A DNA stretch of 25,292 nt, taken from positions 1 to 25,292 of IMG/VR virus record IMGVR_UViG_3300021420_000892, one strand, 5' to 3'. The DNA comes from a virus. A program made the position numbers and the translations under genes. Of this stretch, positions 5,861 to 20,036 are shown one piece after another; within the stretch, counting starts at the first letter, position 1; every line of letters starts with the position of its first letter. The notes under the pieces are model-generated. The model had not been told where the DNA came from. It saw only the letters and a program-made list of their open reading frames with translations, and ran no database searches.

Positions 5861-7345
5861 GTGGGCGTCGCGGCGGACATTGTTGCGCCGGAAAATCCCG
5901 AGGCACCAAAGCCCGAACCGCCGCCGGTTTTTGCGTCTTGGTACTACCGGCCATTTCCGAGGCAAGAAGAGTTTCACCGATGCGCGGCGAAATATCGGCT
6001 TTTTGGCGGGGCGGCCGGTCCGGGAAAAACGAAAGCGCTTTTGTGGGAAGCGATTCGCCAGGCAAATAAATGGCCTTGCGTCGATACGCTGCTGCTGCGG
6101 CGTACGTTCCCGGAACTCGAAGCTTCGCTGATCACGTATTTTCGCCGCGATGTGCGGCGCTGGATGTACGAGAGCTACAACGAAGCGAAGCACATCATCA
6201 CCTGGCACAACGGCTCAACCACGCGCTTCGGTTATTCCGCAGGCGAAAACGACGTCTACCAATATCAGGGCGCGGAATTTCTCTTTATCGGCGTCGACGA
6301 GCTGACACTCTTCACGCTGGGCCAGTGGCAATTCCTGACAAGCCGCAATCGTTGCGCGGTTGCTGGAACGACGCCGAATATGGCCGGGGCGACCAATCCC
6401 GGAAATATCGGCCATGCCTGGGTGAAGGCGCTGTGGGTCGATCAGCGGCCGGCGCCGGGCATGGACCGTCCGGGGCAATACGATTCGGACGACTACGCGT
6501 TCATTCGCGCGACCATTGCCGATAATCCGCTCTATAGAGATGACACGGATTATCTGAAGACGCTGAATGCGCTGCCGCGGCACCTGCGACAAGCATTTCT
6601 CGAGGGCGATTGGAACGTCTTCGCGGGGCAGTATTTCGATCTTTTCGACGTGCGGCGGCATACGGCGCGGGCCGAGCAGCTCGGTTTGCAGTCGTGGTGG
6701 CCGCGATGGATCTCCATCGATTGGGGCTACGAGCATCCCAGCGCGGTTTATTGGCACGCGGCGCGTCCTGGCGGGACGGTGGTTACTTACCGAGAATTCG
6801 TAGAAAACCATTTGTCCCCTGACAAATTAGCGAAGGTCATCGTTGATCGCTCGCGGGATTTCAGGGAAGGGCAAGAACGGATCGGCGAAATATTCCTTTC
6901 GCCGGATGCGTTTGCCCATCAGACGTCGGAATTCACTATCGCCGACCAATTGGGCGCCGTGTTGGCGGAAAACGGGCTGCCGCGGCCGATTCCCGCGGAT
7001 AACGATCGCATCGGCGGCTGGATGTTGATGTACCAGATGCTGCAGGCGGGGCAATGGCTGATCGCGGATCATTGCACCCACCTGATCGAATGCCTCCCGA
7101 CACTGATACGCGATCCGGCAAACGTGGAAGACTTGCAGAAAATGGATGGAGACGATCCGGCAGACAGCGCGCGCTATGGGCTCAAGTCGCGGCTCGCGTC
7201 GGCGCGCGCGCCAATCGAGCATCGCGTGGCCGAGCGAATTAGCGCCGTCGATCCCACTTCGCGGGCCATCTGGACGCAGAAATATGCGGCCGAGGAGCGT
7301 CGAGGGATGCGCTCGCCGCTGCTGCCGCTGCGCCATGGCCGGTAA
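5861..7345 (+). CDS. terL: Phage terminase large subunit
   Basis: Packaging motor ATPase-nuclease that drives DNA into the procapsid through the portal. GTG 5861 follows the previous stop by six bases, with a weak AAGAAAG upstream. In the 494 residues, Walker A is GGAAGPGKTKAL (49-60, Lys56) and Walker B LFIGVDE (141-147, Asp146/Glu147). The conserved TNPGNIGHAWVK (178-189) and the linker LPRHLRQAFLEGDWNVFAGQ (238-257) follow. The C-terminal RNase H-like nuclease starts at ISIDWGY (Asp287), with a further acidic candidate at SPDAF (Asp349). Length and order match Terminase_6-type large subunits. No frameshift or missing motif is visible, so it appears functional. Portal, scaffold and capsid genes follow in the usual order. 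Confidence 0.96.
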   Translation: MGVAADIVAPENPEAPKPEPPPVFASWYYRPFPRQEEFHRCAAKYRLFGGAAGPGKTKALLWEAIRQANKWPCVDTLLLRRTFPELEASLITYFRRDVRRWMYESYNEAKHIITWHNGSTTRFGYSAGENDVYQYQGAEFLFIGVDELTLFTLGQWQFLTSRNRCAVAGTTPNMAGATNPGNIGHAWVKALWVDQRPAPGMDRPGQYDSDDYAFIRATIADNPLYRDDTDYLKTLNALPRHLRQAFLEGDWNVFAGQYFDLFDVRRHTARAEQLGLQSWWPRWISIDWGYEHPSAVYWHAARPGGTVVTYREFVENHLSPDKLAKVIVDRSRDFREGQERIGEIFLSPDAFAHQTSEFTIADQLGAVLAENGLPRPIPADNDRIGGWMLMYQMLQAGQWLIADHCTHLIECLPTLIRDPANVEDLQKMDGDDPADSARYGLKSRLASARAPIEHRVAERISAVDPTSRAIWTQKYAAEERRGMRSPLLPLRHGR

Positions 7346-7687: not shown

Positions 7688-7777
7688 AAAGCCCCAGGGC
7701 CCCGCCCAACCACCCCAGCGCACGCAGAACCGGCGCGCGCTGGGGACCCCGGTTTCCGCGGGCGCCTGGGCTACAAG
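7688..7777. repeat. Composite repeat: family B nested in family A
   Basis: Outer arms AAAGCCCCAGGGC and GCGCCTGGGCTACAAG (family A) enclose a complete family B hairpin (about 7711-7753) with arms CCCCAGCGC and GCGCTGGGG followed by GACCCCGG. Comparison with 15781-15827, a family A copy without B, suggests that B entered A. The spacer 7778-7830 shows nothing that I recognise. Confidence 0.8.
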
Positions 7778-7830
7778 AATTCGTACCGACCTTCCGAATG
7801 CGAACGTCGCCACCCGAAAAACTTAAAGAA

Positions 7831-7919: not shown

Positions 7920-10631
7920 ATGAGCACGAGTGAAAACGCGATCCTGAAAGACACGCAGCGCGGCGCGGCCGTCGAGGCCGACGGCAATGCGCCGACGCAG
8001 TCGGTGCAGCTCGGCGGCGGGATTTCGCTCGGACTCGATTCGCAGAGCGATCCTGGGACGGAGGCGCTCGGCCCGAATAACGAGCGCCTGGAGCAAACTG
8101 CGCCGCGGCTGGTGAACGCGTTGCGCGAGCTTGTGGTGCAGTTTCGCCAGGAAGGGATCGTTGCGCGGCGTCACGAAATCCGGCGCATTCGCCAGGCGCG
8201 GCTTTTCTGGCAGGGGCTGCAATACGCCTGGTGGAATCCGCAGGACATGAATTGGCACCTGCCGTGGGAAGCGAAGATCTATGACGATTCGGCGCTGGAA
8301 GAAATGCCGCGGTTTCAGTTCGTTACGAATTTGTATCAGGCATTCGGGCTGTCGTTTGTCTCTGTGATCAGCCAGGACGTGCCGGCCACGCGTTTCTATC
8401 CGCAATCGACGCTGAGCGACGCCGATATCGAGACAGCCAAGGCCGCTTCGCAAGTGGCGGACCTGATCGAGCAAAATAATCGCGTGCAGCAGTTGCTTAC
8501 TGGAGTGGGATTTTATCTGTGGACCGACGGCAAAATCGGCGGGTACGTGCGCTACGTTGCCGATGGGCAGCGCTTCGGATGGCGCGAGGAATTGCTGCTC
8601 GAAGAGCGGTGGGTTCGGCTGGGCCGCGATGCTTACGTTTGCTCGAAGTGCGGGGCGGAAAGCGAAGCCGGCGACGATTTAAGCGTCGCAAATGCACAGG
8701 GAAAAGCCCCAGGTGACCCAACTGCCACCCCAACGCGCGCAAAAGCAGCGCGCGTTGAGGACCTCGGGAGCGTCGGGTTACACTGGGCTACAAGTGCGGA
8801 GCAAAACCAACAGAGAGATTCTTCGGGCCAACACATCAGCCGTCAGAATGACGGTTCGCCGCAATGGTCGCCAAGCTTTCTGACTGGGACGATGTGCGCG
8901 CAATGCGGCGCGACGCTCGGCGCGAACGACTTTCGACCGGCACCGCTGGTGCCGGTGCCACAAAGTGTTGGCACGCGCCGCGTGGCTAACGGCCAGGAAG
9001 TGATTTCCATCGTCGGCGGCCTCGAGCTGAATACGCCCGTCTGGGCCAACGAGCAGTACGAGTTCCCGTATCTGCAATGGCAGATGGAAGTGCACCGCGC
9101 GAAGCTGAAGGCGGCTTTCCCGCACGCGGCCGACAAGATCCAGATGGGCGGCCCGCAAGGGGCGGACGATATTTATGCGCGAGCGACGCGCATCGCCGTC
9201 TCGCAAGGCATGCCGACAATTCATCCGGGCGATGCGCTTTTCAATCTGATCACGTTTTCGCGCACCTGGATTCGTCCGTGGGCGTTTTATTCCATCGAGG
9301 ACGCCGCGGTGCGCGATCAGCTTCTGCGGCTATTTCCCGACGGCTGCTACGTGGCATTCGCTGGTGAGACTTACTGCGAATCGCGCAATGAATCGATGGA
9401 CGATTGCTGGCGCGTGATGCATGCGTTGCCGGGCGATGGGCAGAATCGCCCGAGCGTGGGCGATTCGCTGATCGAAGTGCAGGAGCGATACAACACGCTT
9501 TCCAATATTCAGGCCGAGACTTACGAATACGGTGTGCCGCCGATCTACGCGGATCCGCAGGTGCTCGATTTTGACGCGCTCGCGAATCAAACCGCGGAAC
9601 CAGCGGCGCATTATCCGGCGCGGGCGAGGCCGGGAATGTCTCTGGCGGACGGGTTTTTCCAGCCGGCACCGGCGCAAGTGCCGCCGGACATGCTGCGGCA
9701 TCAGCAAGACCTGATCGGGCCCATCGCCCAATTCCTCACGGGACTTTTTCCGGCCGTGTTTGGCGGAGAAATGGAAAACGTGAAAACTGCGAGCGGCTAC
9801 GCCATGGCTCGCGATCAGGCGCTCGGGCGGCTGGGACTCGTTTGGCGGCGCCTCAAATCTTTTTATTGTGACGTGATGCTGCTGGCGGTGGATTGCTTCC
9901 GCAAAAGCCGCCCCAGCGATGTGGAGATTCCGTTTCTCGGCGCGGGCGGGGAATTCGAGGCGCGATTCATCCGCCTGGCGAACCTTAAAGGGAATATCCA
10001 GGCGCATCCGGAATCGGACGAGACGTTCCCGCGGCTGAAATCGCAGCAACGCGCCGTGCTGCAACAGCTCATGACTAATCCCGATCCGACCATTCAGGCC
10101 GCTCTGCGCGAGCCGGCCAATCTCGGGTTCGTCAAGTCGCTGGTGGGCTTGAGCGAACTCGTCGTGCCGGGAGATGACGCGCGCAATAAACAGCTGCGCG
10201 AGATTCAGGCTTTGTTGACGGCGGGGCCTCTTTTTTCGCCGCAAGCTCGCCTTACCGGCGACGTTGCGGCGTTCGACAACCCCATTCATGCGGGGCCGGA
10301 TGCACTGACTGGGCCCGGCAAGACCGGAGCTGCCGTTGGCGGGGACTTCGGCCTGGGTGCCACAACTTCTCCGCCGGGCGCGGAAGACACGCCCGGCCTT
10401 CTGCCCGCGGTCCGATCTACGGTGCCGGTGGATGAGTTGCTGGACGATCACGCGACGGAATTCGAGGAGTGCCGGCGGTGGGCAAGTTCGGATGCCGGCC
10501 AGATCGCTCGCGCGCAGAATCCCGCGGGTTTTGCCAATGTACGCGCGCACGCGGCGGAACACGCCGCAGCGCTCGCGCGGCAGCAGGCACAAGCCGCGCC
10601 GCTCAAAGCCGGCTCTGTTGTGCCGCGCTGA
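7920..10631 (+). CDS. Portal-like protein with a repeat-interrupted zinc ribbon
   Basis: A 903-residue protein between terminase and scaffold/capsid genes, called portal by position, size and general character (IRRIRQARLFWQGLQYAWWN; FVTNLYQAFGLSFVSVISQD; long helical stem and C-terminal part). Portals form the dodecameric DNA entry ring. ATG 7920 follows GAGGA at 7912-7916. A zinc-ribbon-like pair occurs as CSKC (241-244) and CAQC (326-329), separated by about 80 residues because two repeats are inserted in frame (residues about 261-312). Another repeat encodes residues about 773-789, and the Arg codon plus TGA stop belong to a further repeat. Despite these insertions no stop codon interrupts the frame, implying selection. 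I cannot exclude that it is a portal fused to extra domains. Confidence 0.8.
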   Translation: MSTSENAILKDTQRGAAVEADGNAPTQSVQLGGGISLGLDSQSDPGTEALGPNNERLEQTAPRLVNALRELVVQFRQEGIVARRHEIRRIRQARLFWQGLQYAWWNPQDMNWHLPWEAKIYDDSALEEMPRFQFVTNLYQAFGLSFVSVISQDVPATRFYPQSTLSDADIETAKAASQVADLIEQNNRVQQLLTGVGFYLWTDGKIGGYVRYVADGQRFGWREELLLEERWVRLGRDAYVCSKCGAESEAGDDLSVANAQGKAPGDPTATPTRAKAARVEDLGSVGLHWATSAEQNQQRDSSGQHISRQNDGSPQWSPSFLTGTMCAQCGATLGANDFRPAPLVPVPQSVGTRRVANGQEVISIVGGLELNTPVWANEQYEFPYLQWQMEVHRAKLKAAFPHAADKIQMGGPQGADDIYARATRIAVSQGMPTIHPGDALFNLITFSRTWIRPWAFYSIEDAAVRDQLLRLFPDGCYVAFAGETYCESRNESMDDCWRVMHALPGDGQNRPSVGDSLIEVQERYNTLSNIQAETYEYGVPPIYADPQVLDFDALANQTAEPAAHYPARARPGMSLADGFFQPAPAQVPPDMLRHQQDLIGPIAQFLTGLFPAVFGGEMENVKTASGYAMARDQALGRLGLVWRRLKSFYCDVMLLAVDCFRKSRPSDVEIPFLGAGGEFEARFIRLANLKGNIQAHPESDETFPRLKSQQRAVLQQLMTNPDPTIQAALREPANLGFVKSLVGLSELVVPGDDARNKQLREIQALLTAGPLFSPQARLTGDVAAFDNPIHAGPDALTGPGKTGAAVGGDFGLGATTSPPGAEDTPGLLPAVRSTVPVDELLDDHATEFEECRRWASSDAGQIARAQNPAGFANVRAHAAEHAAALARQQAQAAPLKAGSVVPR
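8702..8794. repeat. Family A/B repeat inside the portal gene
   Basis: AAAAGCCCCAGG (left) and CTGGGCTACAAG (right) bound a family B-like hairpin (about 8725-8767, CCCCAACGCGCGC / GCGCGCGTTGAGG). It is read in frame as part of the portal, between the two CxxC pairs. It is more diverged than the intergenic copies. Confidence 0.8.
8816..8853. repeat. Family C repeat inside the portal gene
   Basis: AGATTCTTCGGGCC and CGTCAGAATGACGG match the intergenic copy at 13366-13402 nearly end to end. It lies 21 nt after the A/B copy and is translated within the zinc-ribbon spacer. Confidence 0.75.
10237..10285. repeat. Hairpin E5 inside the portal gene
   Basis: Outer stem CGCCGCAA/TTGCGGCG (10237-10244/10264-10271), a 2x2 mismatch, inner stem TCGCC/GGCGA, loop TTACC, then TT and the tail CGACAACCCCAT. 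It is nearly identical to the copy at 15095-15145, and both are translated in the same frame (PQARL...DVAA.DN). Confidence 0.8.
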
Positions 10632-10674: not shown

Positions 10675-11880
10675 ATGGAGCAGGGAAGCAGTGCAAGCGC
10701 GCTGGCGGCGCGTACGGCAGGTATGACAGACGAACAGATTCTGGACCTCGATCTCGAGGCTTTGCAAAATGGCGGAGGCGTTGGAGCGCAGGGAACTCCC
10801 GCTGGTTCTGTCGGAGCTTCTGCGGATTTTGGCGATGAATGGGAAGCTGTAGAAACTTCTTTTGGCTCGCAGGGCGCCGTGATGTCCACGGCCCCTGCGA
10901 GACTCGACAACACCAATACGCCTGCGCCAGATCCACATGGCGTAAGGTCGAGCGTGCCTGAAAAGGCTGGCGCGAATGCGCAAGGCGAGCCCTTCGGGAA
11001 TAACCCTCAGGGCGAGCCTGCGTGGCTGAAGCGGCTCGAGACGCAACCTGCGGCTGCAGCCGAAGCGCGCCAGTGGCGCGAGGCGGCGAAGGACGTGGCC
11101 ACGCTGGACGCGGCTTACTTCAGCGGCGACGCCGGAGCGCGCTCGGGACTGGCTGCGCGGCTCTACCAGAGCGATCCCGCGGCGTTTCGTGAAATGCTGG
11201 CGGAAAGCGCGCGCATGCTGGCGTCGCGCGATCCGCAGGCGCTGGCGGAGCTTGCGCGGCAACTCGGAGTCAGTGAGGCGCAGGCGCCGGGTACTGCGAC
11301 GAAATCGCTAGGCCAGGCGGCGCGATCCGCCGAGTCTGGCGTTGCGACGCAAAACCAAATGTCCCCCGACAATCTCGGCACCGCTGCGTTTCCCGCGGAA
11401 GCCTACCGCGCGTTTGAATCCGCGACCAACGAAGACGTGGCGAGGAGCACTCGCGAGGCCATCGAGCGCACACTGGGCTCCACGCTGCCCGAAGGCATCG
11501 GCGAGGGTGCGCGGCGGCGGATCGGCGACGACATTTTTCAGGAACTACACGCGACGCTTTCCGCAGATCGCGAACTAAGCCGGCAAGTGGGCGATATCCT
11601 GCGCGGGTGGCATTTCGATGGCGCGACGAAGCAGCAGATCGTTTCGCTGATTTCGAGTCGTGCTCGCGCGGCGATGCCGGAGGTGTCGCGGCGCGTGGTC
11701 GCGGAGTGGACTTCGTCGGTGCTTGCTTCCGACCGAGCTCGCGCGGCGCGCGTGGATGCGGCAGCTTCGCGGCGAGACATCACAGGAGGACGCCTACCTG
11801 CCGCAGTTCCGGCCAATGCGCTGACTCCGCGAAGGGTCGATTACTCCCGTATGAGCGACGAACAAATCCTGGACCTGTAA
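10675..11880 (+). CDS. Scaffold-like / prohead core protein
   Basis: ATG 10675 with GGAGG at 10666-10670; 401 residues. It sits between portal and major capsid genes, the usual place for the scaffolding protein that guides procapsid assembly. Composition is Ala/Glu/Arg/Gln-rich with long predicted helices (about 290-385), and the N-terminal half is low in complexity. The short motif DEQILDL occurs at residues 19-25 (MTDEQILDLDLE) and again as the very last residues (MSDEQILDL-stop). Such terminal motifs could contact coat or portal; this is inference. Residues about 64-81 are encoded by a family E hairpin in frame. No protease signature is seen. Confidence 0.65.
   Translation: MEQGSSASALAARTAGMTDEQILDLDLEALQNGGGVGAQGTPAGSVGASADFGDEWEAVETSFGSQGAVMSTAPARLDNTNTPAPDPHGVRSSVPEKAGANAQGEPFGNNPQGEPAWLKRLETQPAAAAEARQWREAAKDVATLDAAYFSGDAGARSGLAARLYQSDPAAFREMLAESARMLASRDPQALAELARQLGVSEAQAPGTATKSLGQAARSAESGVATQNQMSPDNLGTAAFPAEAYRAFESATNEDVARSTREAIERTLGSTLPEGIGEGARRRIGDDIFQELHATLSADRELSRQVGDILRGWHFDGATKQQIVSLISSRARAAMPEVSRRVVAEWTSSVLASDRARAARVDAAASRRDITGGRLPAAVPANALTPRRVDYSRMSDEQILDL
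10866..10917. repeat. Hairpin E6 inside the scaffold-like gene
   Basis: Outer stem CTCGCAGGG/CCCTGCGAG (10866-10874/10893-10901), single unpaired C10875, inner stem GCCGTG/CACGGC, loop ATGTC, then ACT and the tail CGACAACACCAAT (10905-10917). TTTGG precedes it. Same architecture as 15039-15076 with different stem sequence. Confidence 0.85.
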
Positions 11881-11893
11881 TGCCTTTGGTCTC

Positions 11894-12130
11894 ATGACAG
11901 GGATCGCCACCGACGTTGGGGCTCAGAATGCGATGGAGGGGGACCAGAACCTGAGGCGAACAGGCAAGACCACGACAGATGCAATTTCATTTATAGTCCA
12001 TAGGGATGGGTCGCCTCCGACAGATGATGAGGTAATGCACCTGGGCAATGTGGAGCATGCCGAACCGTACAAAATTGGAAGCGTTTACCTGTACAGGGAG
12101 AAAAAGCCTACAGTCACGAGAACCAGATAA
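11894..12130 (+). CDS. Small hypothetical ORF (78 aa)
   Basis: ATG 11894 has no clear Shine-Dalgarno. The product is hydrophilic with one aromatic-rich end (PYKIGSVYLYREKKP). It overlaps the longest version of the beta-propeller frame that follows. The codon pattern is less biased than in the neighbouring phage genes, so it may be a remnant carried in together with the propeller gene. No family recognised. Confidence 0.35.
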   Translation: MTGIATDVGAQNAMEGDQNLRRTGKTTTDAISFIVHRDGSPPTDDEVMHLGNVEHAEPYKIGSVYLYREKKPTVTRTR

Positions 12131-13265
12131 ATCAGCCCGCACGGCCCAGGTTAAGGGCGCAGCGGTACCGCGAAAAATCGCCTGGTTCCTTCTGATGACG
12201 GCTCTTCTGCTCGCGGGCAGGGCGAAGGCGCAGTGTGGGAATGGGGCGAACTTTACCGTTTGTCCCGTCGCGGACCGAATTTACATCAACACGGATAAAA
12301 GGCTTGGAGCGCTACGGCTTTCTGACGGAAGCATATTGTGGCAGATTGACCTTCCCCCCAGGGAAGAGAGCTACACGGCAACGGCGGCCACGAAGGATGT
12401 AGTGGCGGTCTGGGCCGGCTTTCCCGACACCGGGATCTACGCATTCGATGCGAAGACAGGCAGACCTGCCTGGCGAATCAACACGAGTTCGTACGGGATT
12501 ACAGCAGTCGGGCCTTACTTCGTGTTCAGTGATGCGGAGCACTGGGAAGCGCTCACGGCAGTGGACGACAAGACAAGAAAAAGGATCTGGCACCATAGCG
12601 GAAGCAGACCCACCCGGGGAGGCGTCAGCATGCTGGTCGCCGCCGATGAAGAGATTCTCACCGAGTTCTTTGCGATTAACGGCCATTCCGGCCAAATTTT
12701 GAAACGGTGGCCAAGGGCGTGGGTGGTTTCCGCGGGTGCGTTGAGCGACAAATTTGTCGCCATCGGAACTCGTGATGCAGGGCGCAAGACGAATAAAGTA
12801 GCCGCTTACTCTCTTCCCGGTTACGAGATGTTATGGGTGAGAGACAATGCCGAGGGAAGACAGGTCGAAGCCATCGCGACGGACAGTGATCACGTCCTCG
12901 TGGCGAGCAGTCCTTGGGATGCGGAGAGCTTTAGCCCTGGAGAAATCAGGCTGGAAGTCCTCAAAGCTTCTTCCGGGGACGCGATCTGGACCAAGACAAT
13001 AAACTCGAGCGGGCCGCTGGCTTCGCCGGTCGGGCTAAGCCAGGGCATCGCGGTCTTTGCCACGGGCGAATCAGCGCATTCGCGCATCGTGCAGGGCTTT
13101 GACGCTGCCACAGGGCAGTTGAAATGGACGGTTCGGACCGACCAAAGGATTGACGGGGTGACCTGCGTTGGATCGAGCTGTTATGTCGGTGGTGAAATCG
13201 GCGAGGTCCTGGCAATTGATGTGCAGACCGGCGCGCAGCGCTGGTATCGAGTTTCCACACAATAG
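12048..13265 (+). CDS. PQQ-type beta-propeller repeat protein, secreted
   Basis: The frame is open from ATG 12048, but the likely mature protein begins near 12231 after a signal-peptide-like segment (VPRKIAWFLLMTALLLAGRA, cleavage after AKA). No normal start codon lies just before it, so the start is uncertain. Eight PQQ/quinoprotein-like repeats with a Gly-x-x-x-Trp type signature can be counted: LRLSDGSILW, FDAKTGRPAW, VDDKTRKRIW, INGHSGQILK, YSLPGYEMLW, LKASSGDAIW, FDAATGQLKW, IDVQTGAQRW. This fits one complete eight-bladed propeller. Such domains bind PQQ in dehydrogenases or act as scaffolds; no dehydrogenase module is fused here. It interrupts the scaffold-capsid gene order and is not a usual virion protein, so it looks like an acquired cargo (moron) gene. 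Confidence 0.78.
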   Translation: MWSMPNRTKLEAFTCTGRKSLQSREPDKSARTAQVKGAAVPRKIAWFLLMTALLLAGRAKAQCGNGANFTVCPVADRIYINTDKRLGALRLSDGSILWQIDLPPREESYTATAATKDVVAVWAGFPDTGIYAFDAKTGRPAWRINTSSYGITAVGPYFVFSDAEHWEALTAVDDKTRKRIWHHSGSRPTRGGVSMLVAADEEILTEFFAINGHSGQILKRWPRAWVVSAGALSDKFVAIGTRDAGRKTNKVAAYSLPGYEMLWVRDNAEGRQVEAIATDSDHVLVASSPWDAESFSPGEIRLEVLKASSGDAIWTKTINSSGPLASPVGLSQGIAVFATGESAHSRIVQGFDAATGQLKWTVRTDQRIDGVTCVGSSCYVGGEIGEVLAIDVQTGAQRWYRVSTQ

Positions 13266-13365
13266 TCCGTACGCGAACCCTAGTGCATTCCTGCAATAAA
13301 CGTTGTCCGGAAGCTGCTCGGCGCACCAGCGCGAACGGTGGTTGCCCGCTATGCGAAGGGCAGTG

Positions 13366-13402
13366 AGATTCTTCGGGCCTCGAGACGACCCTCAGAATGA
13401 CA
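13366..13402. repeat. Family C repeat
   Basis: AGATTCTTCGGGCCT at the left and CTCAGAATGACA at the right, with a short divergent centre. It is part of the 412-nt gap 13266-13677 between the propeller and capsid genes, which otherwise holds the composite repeat at 13470-13655 and no recognisable gene. Confidence 0.8.
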
Positions 13403-13469
13403 AATTATCGTCACCGTAAATAAGGCCTAAGTCACACCGAAATCATTCGCAAGACACCGCGAGCGCGGG

Positions 13470-13655
13470 CCGCAGTGACCACTCCAGCACGCGCAACATC
13501 GGCACGTGCTGTGGACCCCGGTTCTGCGGCCACGGTGAGCGGCACAAGCCAAACCCGCACAGCCGACTTGGGCCATGCCCCAGTGCGCACGCCTTTCTTG
13601 TAGGCGAGAGCGCTGTTCGCTCTTAGGACGCGCGCATTGGGGACCCCGGGGCTGT
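13470..13655. repeat. Composite of two family B-like hairpins upstream of capsid gene
   Basis: First unit: CCGCAG (13470) and CTGCGG (13525) enclose CTCCAGCACG...CGTGCTGTGGACCCCGG. Second unit: CCCCAGTGCGCACGCC (from 13578) pairs with GCGCGCATTGGGGACCCC (ending about 13647) and holds an inner palindrome GCGAGAGCGCTGTTCGC. GGCACAAGCC and GGGGCTGTGCC form further arms. It ends about ten bases before the capsid ribosome binding site, so it will lie in the capsid leader if transcription starts upstream. Confidence 0.65.
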
Positions 13656-13677
13656 GCCACCAAAAGGAGAAAACACG

Positions 13678-14934
13678 ATGACGCAAATGCAAAATACGCA
13701 GACCATTGCGCTGCAACTGGAAAAGGTGCGGGACAAAGTGCCGCTGCTGTATGAACGCGACGACGTCCTGCTCAGCATGATCCAGCAGCGCGGAGACGTA
13801 GAGAAAGTCAGCTCGCGCAACATGCGGATTCCGCTGCAAGTGAACCCCGGAGGCAAAGGCGGCTCCTACAACGCCGATGGCGGCGATCTGGGGCGGGGCT
13901 CGGGCACCAGCTACGACGTGGCGCAGATTTCGCCGATCTTTTTCAGATTCGCGGTGGAGATCAGCAAACTCGTCGAGTACGCCACGAATGCGCGCGAGAA
14001 GGCCATCGAGAATGCCGCCAAGCGGGAAGTGGCGAACGGGATGAAGCAATTTCGCGCATTCCTGGACAAAGTGCTACAGACCGCCGGTAATGGCGTGCTG
14101 GGCACGATTGGTTCCGTGAGCGGCACGACGCTGACCATGAATACGCCGCCCGGCGCCGCACTTGTTTACGTGGGCCAGACGATCCAGGTTTACGACTCGA
14201 CCATCACGACGAATCGCGGCTCCTGCAACGTGGTCGCCGCCGATCCGATCAGCAGCACGCAGACGATCACTATCGACGCGTTGCCAACCGGAACCATCGC
14301 CACGGACGTAATCGTGCACGACGGACTTTCCGGCGCGCAGCCGACTTCGCTATTCGGCATCAAGTATCACCAGAACAATGCTACCACCGGGACATGGATG
14401 AATCTGAACCGCGCGACTTACCCGCAGCAGTTGCAGACGCCGCGCGTGAATGCGGCGAATTCCGCGCTCGTACCCGGCTATGTGCGCCTGGCCATCAACA
14501 AGGTTCGCAAAGCGTTGGGCATTGGCCATCTCGGCAAACTGATCGCTTATACCTCGGTCGAGCAGGAACATGCCTGGGAGAATCTGGGCATCACCATCAG
14601 CCAGGTGATCAAGGAAAACGCCAGCGGCAGCGCCAACGATCTCGATCTGCTCTTTTCGGGGCGCAAGACGATGTCCGGCGTGCCGATCAAATCTTCCATC
14701 AATGCCGATCAGACGCGCGTGGATTTTCTCGACCTGTCGCACTGGGGACGCGCGGTGATCAAGGATATCGACTATTTCGAGGTGGGCGACCAGACGGTCT
14801 TCCCGATATACGGAACCTCGGGAGGACTCTCTGCGGCATTTATTTTCTATTTTGACACCGGCTTCCAGGTGTTTTCCGATTCGCCTCGCAGCGGGGCCTA
14901 TATCGACGGGCTGGCGAGACCGACGGGCTACTAG
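13678..14934 (+). CDS. Major capsid protein, HK97-like
   Basis: ATG 13678 with AAGGAG at 13664-13669 is chosen over the in-frame GTG at 13654; 418 residues. The protein shows the style of phage coat proteins: a polar N-terminal arm, a long helix (VEYATNAREKAIENAAKREV, about 99-118), a Gly-rich beta stretch, and a C-terminal region with aromatic strands (DLSHWGRAVIKDIDYFEVGD, FPIYGTSGGLSAAFIFYFDT). Residues about 138-217 (GTIGSVSGTTLTM...VGQTIQVYDS...ATDVIVHDGL) form a separate beta unit, like the insertion domains of P22- or phi29-type coat proteins. Position after portal and scaffold agrees. The strong ribosome binding site and the hairpins directly after the stop fit a highly expressed gene. 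Confidence 0.85.
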   Translation: MTQMQNTQTIALQLEKVRDKVPLLYERDDVLLSMIQQRGDVEKVSSRNMRIPLQVNPGGKGGSYNADGGDLGRGSGTSYDVAQISPIFFRFAVEISKLVEYATNAREKAIENAAKREVANGMKQFRAFLDKVLQTAGNGVLGTIGSVSGTTLTMNTPPGAALVYVGQTIQVYDSTITTNRGSCNVVAADPISSTQTITIDALPTGTIATDVIVHDGLSGAQPTSLFGIKYHQNNATTGTWMNLNRATYPQQLQTPRVNAANSALVPGYVRLAINKVRKALGIGHLGKLIAYTSVEQEHAWENLGITISQVIKENASGSANDLDLLFSGRKTMSGVPIKSSINADQTRVDFLDLSHWGRAVIKDIDYFEVGDQTVFPIYGTSGGLSAAFIFYFDTGFQVFSDSPRSGAYIDGLARPTGY

Positions 14935-14948
14935 CGCGCCATTTTTAG

Positions 14949-15000
14949 CGCCAAAAGCGGCGTGATTCAGCACGCGCTTTTGGCGTTCGACAACACCAAT
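14949..15000 (+). terminator. Bulged hairpin E2 after capsid gene, with conserved tail
   Basis: Outer stem CGCCAAAAGC/GCTTTTGGCG (14949-14958/14976-14985), unpaired G14959, inner stem GCGTG/CACGC, loop ATTCAG. TTTAG precedes it and TT plus CGACAACACCAAT (14988-15000) follows. Lying 14 nt after the capsid stop it may end or attenuate transcription, although its T run is short. Confidence 0.7.
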
Positions 15001-15038
15001 GCGTTTTATCCCCTCCACCCACGAAACGACTTCTTTAG

Positions 15039-15076
15039 GCCGGAAAAATGGCGTGATTGACACGCCTTTTTCCGGC
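15039..15076 (+). terminator. Bulged hairpin E3, strong terminator shape
   Basis: Outer stem GCCGGAAAAA/TTTTTCCGGC (10 bp), unpaired T15049, inner stem GGCGTG/CACGCC (6 bp), loop ATTGA; TTTAG precedes it. The inner stem followed by TTTTT is a good intrinsic terminator, and the A run on the other side would make it bidirectional. Confidence 0.75.
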
Positions 15077-15082
15077 ACGACG

Positions 15083-15745
15083 ATGTCTTTTGTTGCGCCG
15101 CAAGCTCGCCTTGCCGCCGACGTTGCGGCGCCCGACAACACCAATCATTTGGCAATACGAATCATACGGGAGCAGCAGGAACCGCCGGAGGCGGTTCGAC
15201 GGCGGCTGGAGATTGCCGGCGGACGAAACCGCTTCGGCGAAGCGAATTATCGCGCGGTGTGGGGATGGTCGCGCCTAGCGTGGGTAGGCGGCAAGTGGGA
15301 AGACCGTAACTCGGCAGGCGAACTCGTGCGCGAGTGCGTGGAGCTGCGGCGCGTACCCAAGTACGAGCCACACGATCGCTGGCACATCGAACGATGGCTG
15401 CCGCCGGAAGCGTACGGCGCGCCGCGCGCCTGGTACGCACAGACTGTCGAACGCGACGACGGCGTCAGCGTGCCGGCGCTTGGGCCATATCCCGAACGCG
15501 GCGAATACGAGCATTGCTTCACGCTCGAAGGGCCGCACGGCGAATTCGTGCAGCTCACACCTACCGTGGCCGAGTACATTGCGTGCGCCATCGAAGCCGG
15601 ACGGCGCGCGAGCGCCGGCGCAAGGCGGCAGGCAATCGAGCAGCGCGAAGAGCGCAGCGAGCGTGATTACGACAATTGGGCCTGGGACGTGCTCGACAGC
15701 GGATGCCCAGCATTTCACGGGCTGCCGTTCGTGAGTTGTTTATAG
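15083..15745 (+). CDS. Hypothetical protein downstream of capsid gene
   Basis: The frame is open from ATG 14999, itself formed by the tail of hairpin E2 (CACCAATG), and runs through hairpins E3 and E4. ATG 15083 or TTG 15149 are more likely starts; none has a good Shine-Dalgarno. The conserved-looking part begins at LAIRIIREQQEPPEAVRRRL. The protein (220 aa from 15083) is rich in Arg, Glu and Trp (AVWGWSRLAWVGGKWEDR; HIERWLPPEAYGAP), ending in a helical region (REERSERDYDNWAWDVLDSG). No family recognised. The native start seems to have been overwritten by repeats. Its position after the capsid gene suggests a virion accessory role. Confidence 0.6.
   Translation: MSFVAPQARLAADVAAPDNTNHLAIRIIREQQEPPEAVRRRLEIAGGRNRFGEANYRAVWGWSRLAWVGGKWEDRNSAGELVRECVELRRVPKYEPHDRWHIERWLPPEAYGAPRAWYAQTVERDDGVSVPALGPYPERGEYEHCFTLEGPHGEFVQLTPTVAEYIACAIEAGRRASAGARRQAIEQREERSERDYDNWAWDVLDSGCPAFHGLPFVSCL
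15095..15145. repeat. Hairpin E4 overlapping start of the downstream gene
   Basis: Outer stem GCGCCGCAA/TTGCGGCGC (15095-15103/15123-15131), 2x2 mismatch, inner stem TCGCC/GCCGA with one C-C mismatch, loop TTGCC, then C and the tail CGACAACACCAAT (15133-15145). It is a near copy of 10237-10285 in the portal gene. Confidence 0.8.
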
Positions 15746-15853
15746 CGCGAAAAGACCGTGATAGGTCGCTTACAACAGGAAAAAGCCCCAGGGCCCCGCA
15801 ACAACGGCGGGCGCCCTGGGCTACAAGTTTTTTTCGAGTGCGACAACACCAAT
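15741..15853. repeat. Family A copy inside a split hairpin E7
   Basis: TATAG and an E-like 5' arm (CGCGAAAAGACCGTGAT, 15746-15762) are followed by a complete family A element (15781-15827, AAAAGCCCCAGGGC to GCCCTGGGCTACAAG). Then come TTTTTTTCG (15828-15836), able to pair with CGAAAA of the left arm, and the tail CGACAACACCAAT (15841-15853). This suggests that A inserted into an existing E copy. Confidence 0.55.
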
Positions 15854-15884
15854 AGGTATTTGAGAAAAGGAAGAGGGGAGAATC

Positions 15885-16523: not shown

Positions 16524-16548
16524 GCCTGGTTGAAACGTGGAGAAACCC

Positions 16549-19500
16549 ATGAAACGCCAGTCGGGAACTTTGTTAGGTGCGAAACGCGGCGACTTTGCTT
16601 GTGCCGCGAAGCTCCTGATGTCCATGACGTTCGCGGCGAAGAAGGTGCGCTTTTCGCGCTCGACGATAGCGGCGCTGGTTGCCCTGTTATTTGTATTGAG
16701 CGCGAGCGCTGCACATGCACAGAGTGGGACTCTAGGCAGCACGAGTTCGCCGGTGGTGAATGCTTTCGGACGGCCGATGGCAGGCGTAGATGTGTCGATC
16801 TGCCAGCCGGCCGCCACGACGGCGGCGCAGGTCATCAGCAATACAGCCGTGCTTACGATGGCCAGCAATCCCGTCACGGCGGGATTTGCGGCGGGCATGC
16901 TGGTGCAAGTTTCCGGGTTTACGGGCGCCGATACTTATTTCAATGGAGGGACGTTCACGAATGGAACGGGAATCACCGGAGGCTACACGATTCTATCTGT
17001 AACGTCGACCACCATCACTTACGCGCTTACGCACGCGAACGCCACAGCGTCGAGCAACGGAACGGTGTTGCAGCAGGGCAGTGGCACCACGGGTTGCGCG
17101 GGGCTATCGGCGGTTTACACAGATCCTGGCATGACGCAGCCGCTGGCGCAGCCGATCGTCACGGATGCCTACGGGAACTGGAACGCCTTCGCACAATCGG
17201 GGCAGCTTTACTACGTTCAGTTTTATGGTACCGGCGTGACGACTTCGATGCGCTGGATCATGGTGAACGTCACCACGAATGCCGCCGTGAAGCCGCAAAG
17301 TAGCGATGCGGTGCAACACGTATCGCCGAATGGCAGCGACAGCAACGATGGGCTGAGCATGGGTACGGCAAAGTTGACGTTGCTCGGGGCTTACAACGGA
17401 CTGCCTTCTACCGGTGGAACGATTTACGTAAGCGGTTCCGGCGTGCAATGCACTTCCGTTTCCGGGCAGGGGCTTGGCATTGCCGGCTCCGGAGATCCCA
17501 ATTACGCCTCAATGCCGGCGGTTCTCGGCAACGTGCAATGGGTAAAGGCAAAAGCGAAATCAGTGAGTATCCAAGGATTAAGCGCGGGCACCGATCAGGG
17601 ACAAAACGCGACCTATGGATGGGCGACAAACATCAGTTGCGGTAACGCGACGACTCCTGCCTTTTGGCTCTCTGGTGTGACGGCTTTCGAGATCAGTCAC
17701 ATCATGGTTCGTACCGCCAGCATCGGAGCACGCGTCTCGATTGATTCCACCGGCGCACGGGGCAACGGCTCCAATCTTTCGACCAACATCCGATTTGCCA
17801 ACGATGATTTCTTTTCCGTAAGCGGCGGAGGGCCGGTCATTGACAGCGGAGGCGGACTGACCTGGTTCCGTGTGACCGACACGCTATTAGAAAATGGCGC
17901 GGGACAAGCCTCCACGTCTGACGCTGCTTCGGGGGCTTATTTCAGCAACGGGAATGCCGCCACCTCTCTGGGACTGATCTATTTCGATCATGTTTTTTTC
18001 ACAGGCGGCGGTGGGGTGCGCTTCGACTCTTGCACCGGATCGTCGGGCAGTTTTTATATGCAGCGAGCATTGATGCAAGGAAGCGGAAATAGCCAGCCCC
18101 TTTACGAAGTAACTAACACGTGTGGTGGAGTTGTTTCTGACATTATCCTCGAAGGCGGTGAGTCCGATAGCGGTACAAACATTCCTGTGGTACGCATACC
18201 AGCAGGAATGAATCCGTGCGCTACGAATGTATCGGGAGCGAGTCTATCCGGCTTGCAGTATGCATGGCTGGAAGGGCCACTGACGGTAGGCGCGGGACAG
18301 TGCAGCCCTAACGCTTCCGGCGGAACACCGACCTATGCCGAACTTACGCCCCTGGCTAATGTGATACCCGCTGCCAAATGGCAGCGCAATGGCCCATATG
18401 GAATCTCGATCAACGATGAGAGTTACCGGCGCTCCTTCTCGCCTACATTTGTGCGCTTTGCTAACCTTGCCGCGCAGAGTCCAGCAAGTTGGGTGGCCAA
18501 CCTTGGAACCGGCAATTCGCTGACACAGATTCAAGGCCCAGGCGATCCTTCAGGTGTAACCAACGCCGCTACTCTGAACTGCACTGCGAATGGAGGACAA
18601 GGCGGCTGCGATTACTACGCTTATAACAACAACCTGACGCTTTCAGCCGGAGATTATATCTACGTTGGAGTCTGGGCGCAGCCGGCATCCACGACAGGAT
18701 TTGCCGTTAACACTCTAGGTGTATTCGGAGCGCCAATTGGACTCGAACAGGTTAGCAATCCTTCAACGCTGCGGCTGATCGCAGCTGGGCCTAACGGTGG
18801 CGGAATTCAAAACGGAAACATTTTTAGCAATCCTTACTACCAGACCGATGGTAACTGGCAATGGATTTGGGCGCTGGCCAAGGTCACAGCGCCATCTGGC
18901 TCGCTCGCCACATTCAAGGTTCACCTCGCTTTCCTAACTGGATTTCCGGTCAATTATTACGCGCCGATGTTCGTGCGTATTCCCGCTTCGAGCGTGGCCC
19001 TCGTAGTAGCGCCGACATTTTCCAGCGCCTCGGAAACGGGTAACACCGTCACGTTTACCACAACGGCTGCACATAATCTTTACGGTGCGATGCCGGTGAT
19101 CGTTTCGGGATGCAGCGTCGGTGGCTACAACGGCGAGTGGGTCGTCACCGGAACTCCGACCTCGACGACTTTCACGCTCTACAATCCGACGAGCGGCCTG
19201 GGCGCGCCCACGGGATGCGTCATCACGCCGGGGAACGACAGCGAAGTCGCGGATTGGGCGAATAACATCGCGCCTTATGGCGACAACTGCACGACGGGAA
19301 CTCTGTGCGGAATACGCGGCGTCACCGTGCCGAAAGTCGTCGCTTCGGGGACGTCGACTCTGGGAAATTCGGCGATCGGAGCCGGCGCTTGCGCTGCAGT
19401 AGTGACGAGCAGCGGCGTTGGAGTTGCCACCACGGACAGGATCGAATGGGCCTACGCGAGCGCTCCTGCAACGGCGGATGGACTTCTGATGCTTAGCCCT

Positions 19501-19881: not shown

Positions 19882-19915
19882 GCGCAGGCTCACTTTTCAA
19901 CTGCGAGATGCCTTT

Positions 19916-20036
19916 GTGGCGCCGGGCTTCAGCCCGACAGTTTCCTCTGGCGAGCGAAATGCCGCACTAAAACCACCCCAGCACACGCAAAAACGGCGAG
20001 TGCTGGGGACCCCGGCAAAGGGCGGCGCTGCATTTA
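19916..20036. repeat. Composite repeat: family B inside family D-like arms
   Basis: GGCGCCGGGCTTCAGCCCG (D-like palindrome) is followed by ATGCCGCACTAAAA, then a clean family B hairpin (19972-20015, CCCCAGCAC...GTGCTGGGGACCCCGG), then GGGCGGCGCTGCATTTACC, which matches the right end of family D. It fills the 204-nt gap between the holin-like and adaptor-like genes. Confidence 0.75.

Follow-up and report, generated by a model that had tools for sequence, protein, structure and literature searches.

Covarying bulged hairpins of a phage contig as probable copies of a palindromic mobile element of Acidobacteriota and their phages

In this study, we have analysed a family of bulged hairpins in a phage contig, the IMG/VR virus record IMGVR_UViG_3300021420_000892, whose whole 25,292-base stretch is referred to here as the window. 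These hairpins are very probably copies of a non-autonomous palindromic mobile element that resides in a narrow group of Acidobacteriota and in their phages, and the best reading of its behaviour is that it works like the Rickettsia palindromic elements and the REPs, without being a GTAG-tagged REP with a RAYT of its own. The element measures about 68–75 bp, starts with GACTTTTTTAWG and ends with CTCGACAACCnnATCAT. In the consensus, RGACTTCTTTAAG leads into an outer stem of 10 bp that contains a constant A/T block; a single base of the 5′ arm, usually C, is left unpaired before an inner stem of 6 bp, and the loop has 5–6 nt and begins with AT. The hairpin is followed by CYCGACAACACCAAT.

The original prediction had described four hairpins, at 973, 10866, 14949 and 15039, as sharing a constant bulged architecture. 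A strict blind scan required an outer stem with 7 or more Watson–Crick pairs, a 5′ arm with exactly one base unpaired, an inner stem with 5 or more pairs and a loop of 4–7. In the window it returned the hairpins at 10866, 14949 and 15039, all on the plus strand, with stems of 9+6, 10+5 and 10+6 pairs, respectively. Applied to 1.02 Mb of related phage DNA, the same scan found 11 hairpins of the same handedness and none in composition-shuffled copies, and thus the bulged hairpins are not a product of chance. The shared architecture is exact at these three sites and weaker at 973, which the strict scan passes over and which is recovered only when G–U pairs and a mismatch are allowed; a loose scan of this kind was too permissive for use. 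As the minimum-energy fold of hairpin 973 has a 2x2 internal loop in place of the single bulge, the bulged base assigned to G980 is insecure.

Pairing in the stems is maintained through compensatory change. In a first covariance model, R1, built on 12 copies and 16 pairs, 98.9% of the pair cells are standard, 11 of the 16 pairs are changed on both sides and none of 500 shuffles scores as high, with slid controls far lower. Since some of the R1 copies had been chosen by their structure, more weight falls on a set of 30 bacterial copies found with the model, which confirms the covariation: 98.1% of the positions are paired and the covariation score is 0.357, versus 0.091 after shuffling (0 of 500 as high) and at most 0.067 in slid controls. 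Less extreme measures on the same copies were matched by more of the shuffles (doubly changed pairs in 46 of 500, pair types in 27 of 500), and this alignment, being fitted to the model, leans towards structure. Free folding gives the 5′ single-base bulge in 29 of the 30 bacterial copies, so that the bulge is kept outside the window as well. The covariation first proposed from the window hairpins is thereby borne out, although the statement that the outer stems differ completely was too strong: an AAAA/TTTT block of the outer stem is retained throughout the family, three of its pairs never vary, and it is around this block that the pairs covary.

Behind the hairpins lies a conserved 3′ tail, CGACAACACCAAT, which had escaped the original prediction. 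It is exact at 10905, 14988, 15133 and 15841 and does not occur on the opposite strand of the window; across 71 related loci the exact tail has six occurrences, all of them on the gene strand, in the closest relatives only and mostly 3′ of a hairpin. Seventeen copies, gathered by a hairpin together with the CGACAACACCAAT block or a TTTRG-like foot, came from the window, from sister phages and from one contig of an Acidobacteria metagenome-assembled genome. No Rfam family reached the gathering threshold in 62 kb of sequence that included the window. A terminator is ruled out, there being no T run 3′ of the hairpin on either strand, and so is a frameshift signal, as the TTTAAG block abuts the hairpin without a spacer and copies are also intergenic. 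The extrahelical base brought integron attC sites into consideration; core boxes to match were not seen, and no formal test was made.

Host genomes were reached through a single match. When bacterial genomes were scanned with the 18-base pattern GCGYYCGACAACACCAAT, 43 matches were obtained, not far above chance, of which one was real (L217): contig QHYR01000308 of ‘Acidobacteria bacterium isolate gp2 AA83’ (genome G001), a contig (G001:C321) that is itself a relative of the window phage. A comparable pattern scan of IMG/VR with CGACAACACCAATNCG gave mostly chance matches, with a hairpin 5′ of the match in close relatives only. At E≤0.01, model R1 has 54 matches in G001, 28 in G061 and 13 in G060, some copies being counted on both strands; counted once at ≥25 bits, the copies number 44, 27 and 11, on 27, 21 and 6 contigs. 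The element is thus present in number in 3 of the 89 genomes of one Acidobacteriota family, whereas none of 396 other genomes of the class has more than one R1 match, a stronger control than the shuffled genomes against which the prediction was to be judged. In the class-wide scan of 399 genomes only G234, G292 and G366 add matches, one each, and all these counts are lower bounds, given the limited number of candidates scored per genome and the strict filters. The match in G366 (L413 1067, G366:C289) is identical, flanks included, to a stretch of G060 (L365 3619, G060:C308), possibly because one contig was binned twice, or through very recent transfer.

To relate host and phage copies, a second covariance model, R2, relied on 30 bacterial-locus copies only, with no phage sequence in its alignment or scoring, even if window copies had been part of the training set of the model that first detected these bacterial copies. 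R2 recovers all four hairpins of the original prediction, with matches starting at 15026 (66.9 bits, E 1.5e-19), 14936 (63.9 bits, E 1.5e-18), 10852 (57.6 bits, E 1.8e-16) and 958 (38.8 bits, E 2.9e-10), the last one being the hairpin at 973 that the strict scan misses. Host and phage copies are one family. Among related phages, matches are confined to the closest (L119 to L122, L076, L081 and C321), and the more distant L123 to L189 give no model match. The window carries one copy per 3.2 kb, versus about one per 119 kb in G001 outside C321, a phage density about 40-fold above that of the chromosome.

The element is a discrete dispersed repeat with unrelated flanks: around 37 bacterial copies the flanking positions share almost no information, and the 5′ boundary, at GAC, is sharp. 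Comparison with relatives identifies both occupied and empty sites within conserved genes. In G001, a HemN-like radical SAM gene (Pfam Radical_SAM and HemN_C) has two copies inside, the second of which adds a net 69 nt in frame at a site that is empty in G060. A YpdA-like Pyr_redox gene of the same genome also has two copies inside. At its first site, 99 extra nt stand in frame in G001 only, the site being empty in G060, G061 and the other aligned relatives, and at its second site the element is present in G001, G060 and G061, with relatives outside these three lacking it. Some other copies that appear to lie inside open reading frames (ORFs) depend on crude ORF calls, and the ORFs around them may be spurious.

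Copies of the element can also be read through. One sense frame (+1) is open in all 18 phage copies tested, and in the bacterial copies four of the six frames are open in 21–26 of 30, versus 45% for shuffles. Selection for open frames may contribute to this, with palindromes of such composition favouring openness to some extent. The HemN-like and YpdA-like genes read the element antisense, and a peptide like VVERQKGVxITPLLAHEKV recurs.

A shorter form, which we call A2, consists of the shared GACTTTGTTAA foot and the bulged hairpin, without the tail. Several bacterial copies, about 112–117 nt long, hold it in their loop. At the second site of the YpdA-like gene, A2 is nested in the loop of the element in G060 and G061 and absent in G001; likewise, the site after the phage capsid gene holds a simple form in the window and an A2-nested form in the sister phage L119. 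A near-identical counterpart of the window element at 15039 lies within the next gene of L119, and in the gene after capsid the element is accompanied by near-duplicate flanking codons (IRIIREQQE / IKVIREQHT; L119 8890–9060 compared with window 15148–15200). A2 is also found at the 5′ end of a RAYT gene (G001:C330), a position at which the reading of intact relatives is uninterrupted; the net change is ~43 nt and the frame is shifted.

As for a mechanism, the element would move as folded single-stranded DNA during replication, a HUH (Y1) enzyme would cut and join it in trans by reading the hairpin and its unpaired flanks, phages would carry it from cell to cell, and it may persist inside genes because it adds about 23–33 tolerated residues. 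Our first guess for the mover, and a tentative one, is a trans-acting Y1 enzyme that works on folded single-stranded DNA; it is favoured because such enzymes, as known from the IS200/IS605 group, read hairpins whose unpaired flanks are conserved. Minimal elements derived from IS200/IS605 (palindrome-associated transposable elements) likewise have their hairpin between two conserved unpaired flanks. The Y1 loci that were examined included no parent insertion sequence with matching ends, and no systematic search for such a parent was made. A further proposal, which we consider speculative and rather doubtful, is that phages would be the main reservoir and vehicle, that the element would preferentially enter the exposed loop of its own resident copies, and that folded single-stranded DNA, in the replicating phage or on the lagging strand, would be both the moving form and the target.

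Several observations weigh against an element of this kind. In-frame insertion in conserved genes is established at two genes only, and neither a target-site duplication, as would be expected of a MITE, nor the exact cleavage site can be read, the flanks being too diverged. Neighbouring chromosomal copies within 3 kb point in the same direction 16 times and in opposite directions once, and there is a weak bias towards the antisense of the nearest ORF (25 of 36, p 0.03, with crude ORF calls); both hint at a role in RNA or replication, which mobility would not explain. A test of strand bias by GC skew (p 0.03 on short contigs) is too weak and was not used. The nested differences could also arise by gene conversion between copies. 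With regard to the enzyme, Y1 matches number 4 in G001, 10 in G060 and 1 in G061, and the single one of G061 is a broken remnant, though that genome has 27 copies. Finally, no Y1 locus scanned with R1 in G001, G060 and G061 is bracketed by a pair of copies, some G060 matches at contig ends lying outside that scan.

These last points bear directly on the transposase named in the original prediction. The dispersed, REP-like structured element that it anticipated is borne out by the matches in three genomes and by the covarying stems, whereas movement by a Y1 (TnpA_REP) transposase finds no support: the window has no Y1 gene, the scanned Y1 loci have no flanking pair, the GTAG tag is missing and the neighbours run in one direction. 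A true REP family mobilised by a dedicated host TnpA_REP (RAYT), with a variant tag replacing GTAG, would be the specific version of the original prediction and overlaps with the Y1 step proposed above; it is in our judgement unlikely. Such a family would suit the bulged hairpin with its unpaired 5′ block, the TTGTAG at the foot of one phage copy (L121 13512), the Y1 genes of G001, G060 and G061, and the copy that stands 520 bp from the Y1 gene of G001:C24. However, the repeat at the borders of that Y1 gene is another one, of GTAG type (CCACCCCAGC...GGGGACCCCGG), the RAYT of G001:C330 has GGGTGCCGCACCC repeats at its borders, and the 16:1 orientation of neighbours departs from REPs, which mostly form inverted dimers (PMC3733652).

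Two other explanations leave transposition aside, and we regard both as improbable. The hairpins might be a conserved regulatory RNA or DNA signal of the phage, either a nut-like antitermination site or a start-associated repeat of the cluster K type, later picked up by host chromosomes. The 5′ block CTTCTTTAA is boxA-like and directly followed by the hairpin, every window copy has the orientation of the coding strand, the stem varies between two conserved segments, the 5′ block and the tail, and the phage density (8 in 25 kb) is far above that of the chromosome, all of which would suit a signal. Yet copies occur within conserved bacterial coding genes and are antisense there, one gene is followed by copies in tandem, the positions of copies differ between closely related phages, most phages of the group have none, and Rfam offers no match. 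Alternatively, ancient copies might only be exchanged homologously among loci and phages, by recombination or gene conversion and with no current transposition. The alternation of simple and nested forms at one site and the flanking duplication beside the L119 copy are what such exchange could leave; against it stand the many loci with unrelated flanks, which homologous exchange cannot seed, and the first YpdA site, occupied in G001 alone.

Among known systems, the element would be nearest in behaviour to the Rickettsia palindromic elements, in-frame invaders of unrelated genes (PMC10969869). Both are palindromic and dispersed, both occupy intergenic sites as well as in-frame sites within conserved genes that are unrelated to one another, at times with two copies in a single gene, both have open frames, and for neither is a dedicated transposase known (PMC10969869, PMC3733652). 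The HemN-like and YpdA-like genes with their in-frame insertions, at sites that are empty in relatives, and the open frames with their recurring encoded peptide are the features that carry this likeness. The likeness is one of behaviour, and there are differences: the present element belongs to a different phylum, is about 70 bp long rather than about 150 bp, and has a single-base 5′ bulge, a conserved 3′ tail, nesting in its own loop and an abundance in phages. Some Rickettsia palindromic elements belong to the CGTC-tagged repeats, which have no associated transposase and are characterised by a CGTC/TGTC tag, an 8–9 bp stem starting with A–T pairs and a CCA tail (PMC3733652); here, the stem starts with G–C and C–G pairs and has 10+6 bp with a bulge.

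The GTAG-tagged REP, BIME and REPIN repeats are alike in having a comparable stem length, an unpaired end block and many copies, some of them inside genes, and differ in the tag, in a RAYT bracketed by copies, in the orientation of neighbours and in higher copy numbers. The consensus 5′ foot of the element is TTTTTTAWG, and GTAG appears in one phage copy only. Since the defining features of neither tagged family are present and there is no Rfam match, the element belongs to the palindromic mobile elements outside both the GTAG REPs and the CGTC-tagged repeats. The SAS/ESAS repeats of cluster K mycobacteriophages reportedly consist of an inverted repeat with variable arms beside a conserved 13-base block; unlike these, the copies described here show no tie to start codons and occur within genes and in host chromosomes. 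A literature search on palindromic repeats of Acidobacteria in phages returned no description of the element, which is no proof of novelty.

In-frame palindromes are best known from Rickettsia, where the mover has not been found, and the soil Acidobacteriota provide a separate case that is far denser in phages. The empty sites and the nested copies that record later events make this a tractable system for asking what moves palindromes without a transposase, and they suggest phages as carriers of such elements. For annotation, the element explains extra peptides in otherwise conserved proteins, and it connects a group of uncultured phages with the bacteria that are their likely hosts.

Within the window, all copies are on the plus strand. 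The weak member (958–1025, hairpin at about 970–1009, with no clear single bulge in its fold) lies between two plus-strand genes. A diverged copy at 10223–10289 (R2 29.3 bits, E 3.8e-7), with the tail CGACAACCCCATT and two tail mismatches, occupies the 3′ part of the ORF at the portal position (7920–10631). The copy at 10852–10920 (hairpin 10866–10901, bulge C10875, tail 10905–10917) is in frame with the ORF starting at 10675, within its N-terminal part. Immediately 3′ of the capsid stop (14934) comes the copy at 14935–15003 (hairpin 14949–14985, bulge G14959, tail 14988–15000), followed by that at 15026–15093 (hairpin 15039–15076, bulge T15049) and by a diverged one at 15094–15148 with the outer stem GCGCCGCAA/TTGCGGCGC and the exact tail at 15133 (R2 17.0 bits, E 0.0046). 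A remnant at 15823–15856 keeps the exact tail at 15841, the remainder apparently displaced by a GTAG-type repeat at 15779–15822 (R1 covers 15732–15856 with an insert, E 0.022), and a composite copy at 16564–16676, with A2 nested in its loop, lies at the start of the gene at 16537 (R1 E 1.7e-5; R2 E 1.6e-5); related 113-nt forms exist in L119, L006 and bacterial loci. The copies at 10223–10289, 15094–15148 and 16564–16676 and the fragment at 15823–15856 had been missed before.

Other repeat families accompany the element. A second one, with the pattern AAAGCCCCAGGG...CCACCCCAGCRCRCGC...GCGCGYGCTGGGGACCCCGG...CCTGGGCTACAAG, is found in the window at 7688–7785, 8703–8795, 13457–13521, 13600–13649, 15779–15825 and 19951–20015. 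It starts with GTAG on the minus strand, its copy at 15787 also has a single 5′ bulge, and one copy lies in frame within the gene at the portal position. As similar repeats border the Y1 gene of G001:C24 (L325, about 1630–1870), this second family looks like a true REP. An inverted pair, TGCCGGGCTAAAGCCCGGCGCTACA / TGTGGCGCCGGGCTTCAGCCCGACA, at 2700–2724 and 19915–19939, has a GTAG foot in one orientation and resembles a REP of a third type. Phages of the group that are more distant (L134, L142, L149, L150 and others) carry many minus-strand copies of a GGGTGCCCCACCC...GGGTGGGCTCTT hairpin, and repeats of a similar type stand at the borders of the RAYT gene of G001:C330.

Regarding the phage itself, PHROGs recognises a terminase gene (5861–7345) and the capsid gene (13654–14934) in the window. 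Relatives of the capsid protein are encoded by none of the INPHARED phage records and by 71 IMG/VR loci, with identities from 98%, the value for L119, down to 38%. Between the genes at the scaffold position and capsid, the ORF 12048–13265 encodes a PQQ-type beta-propeller (Pfam PQQ_2, E 5e-19), an unusual cargo at such a site.

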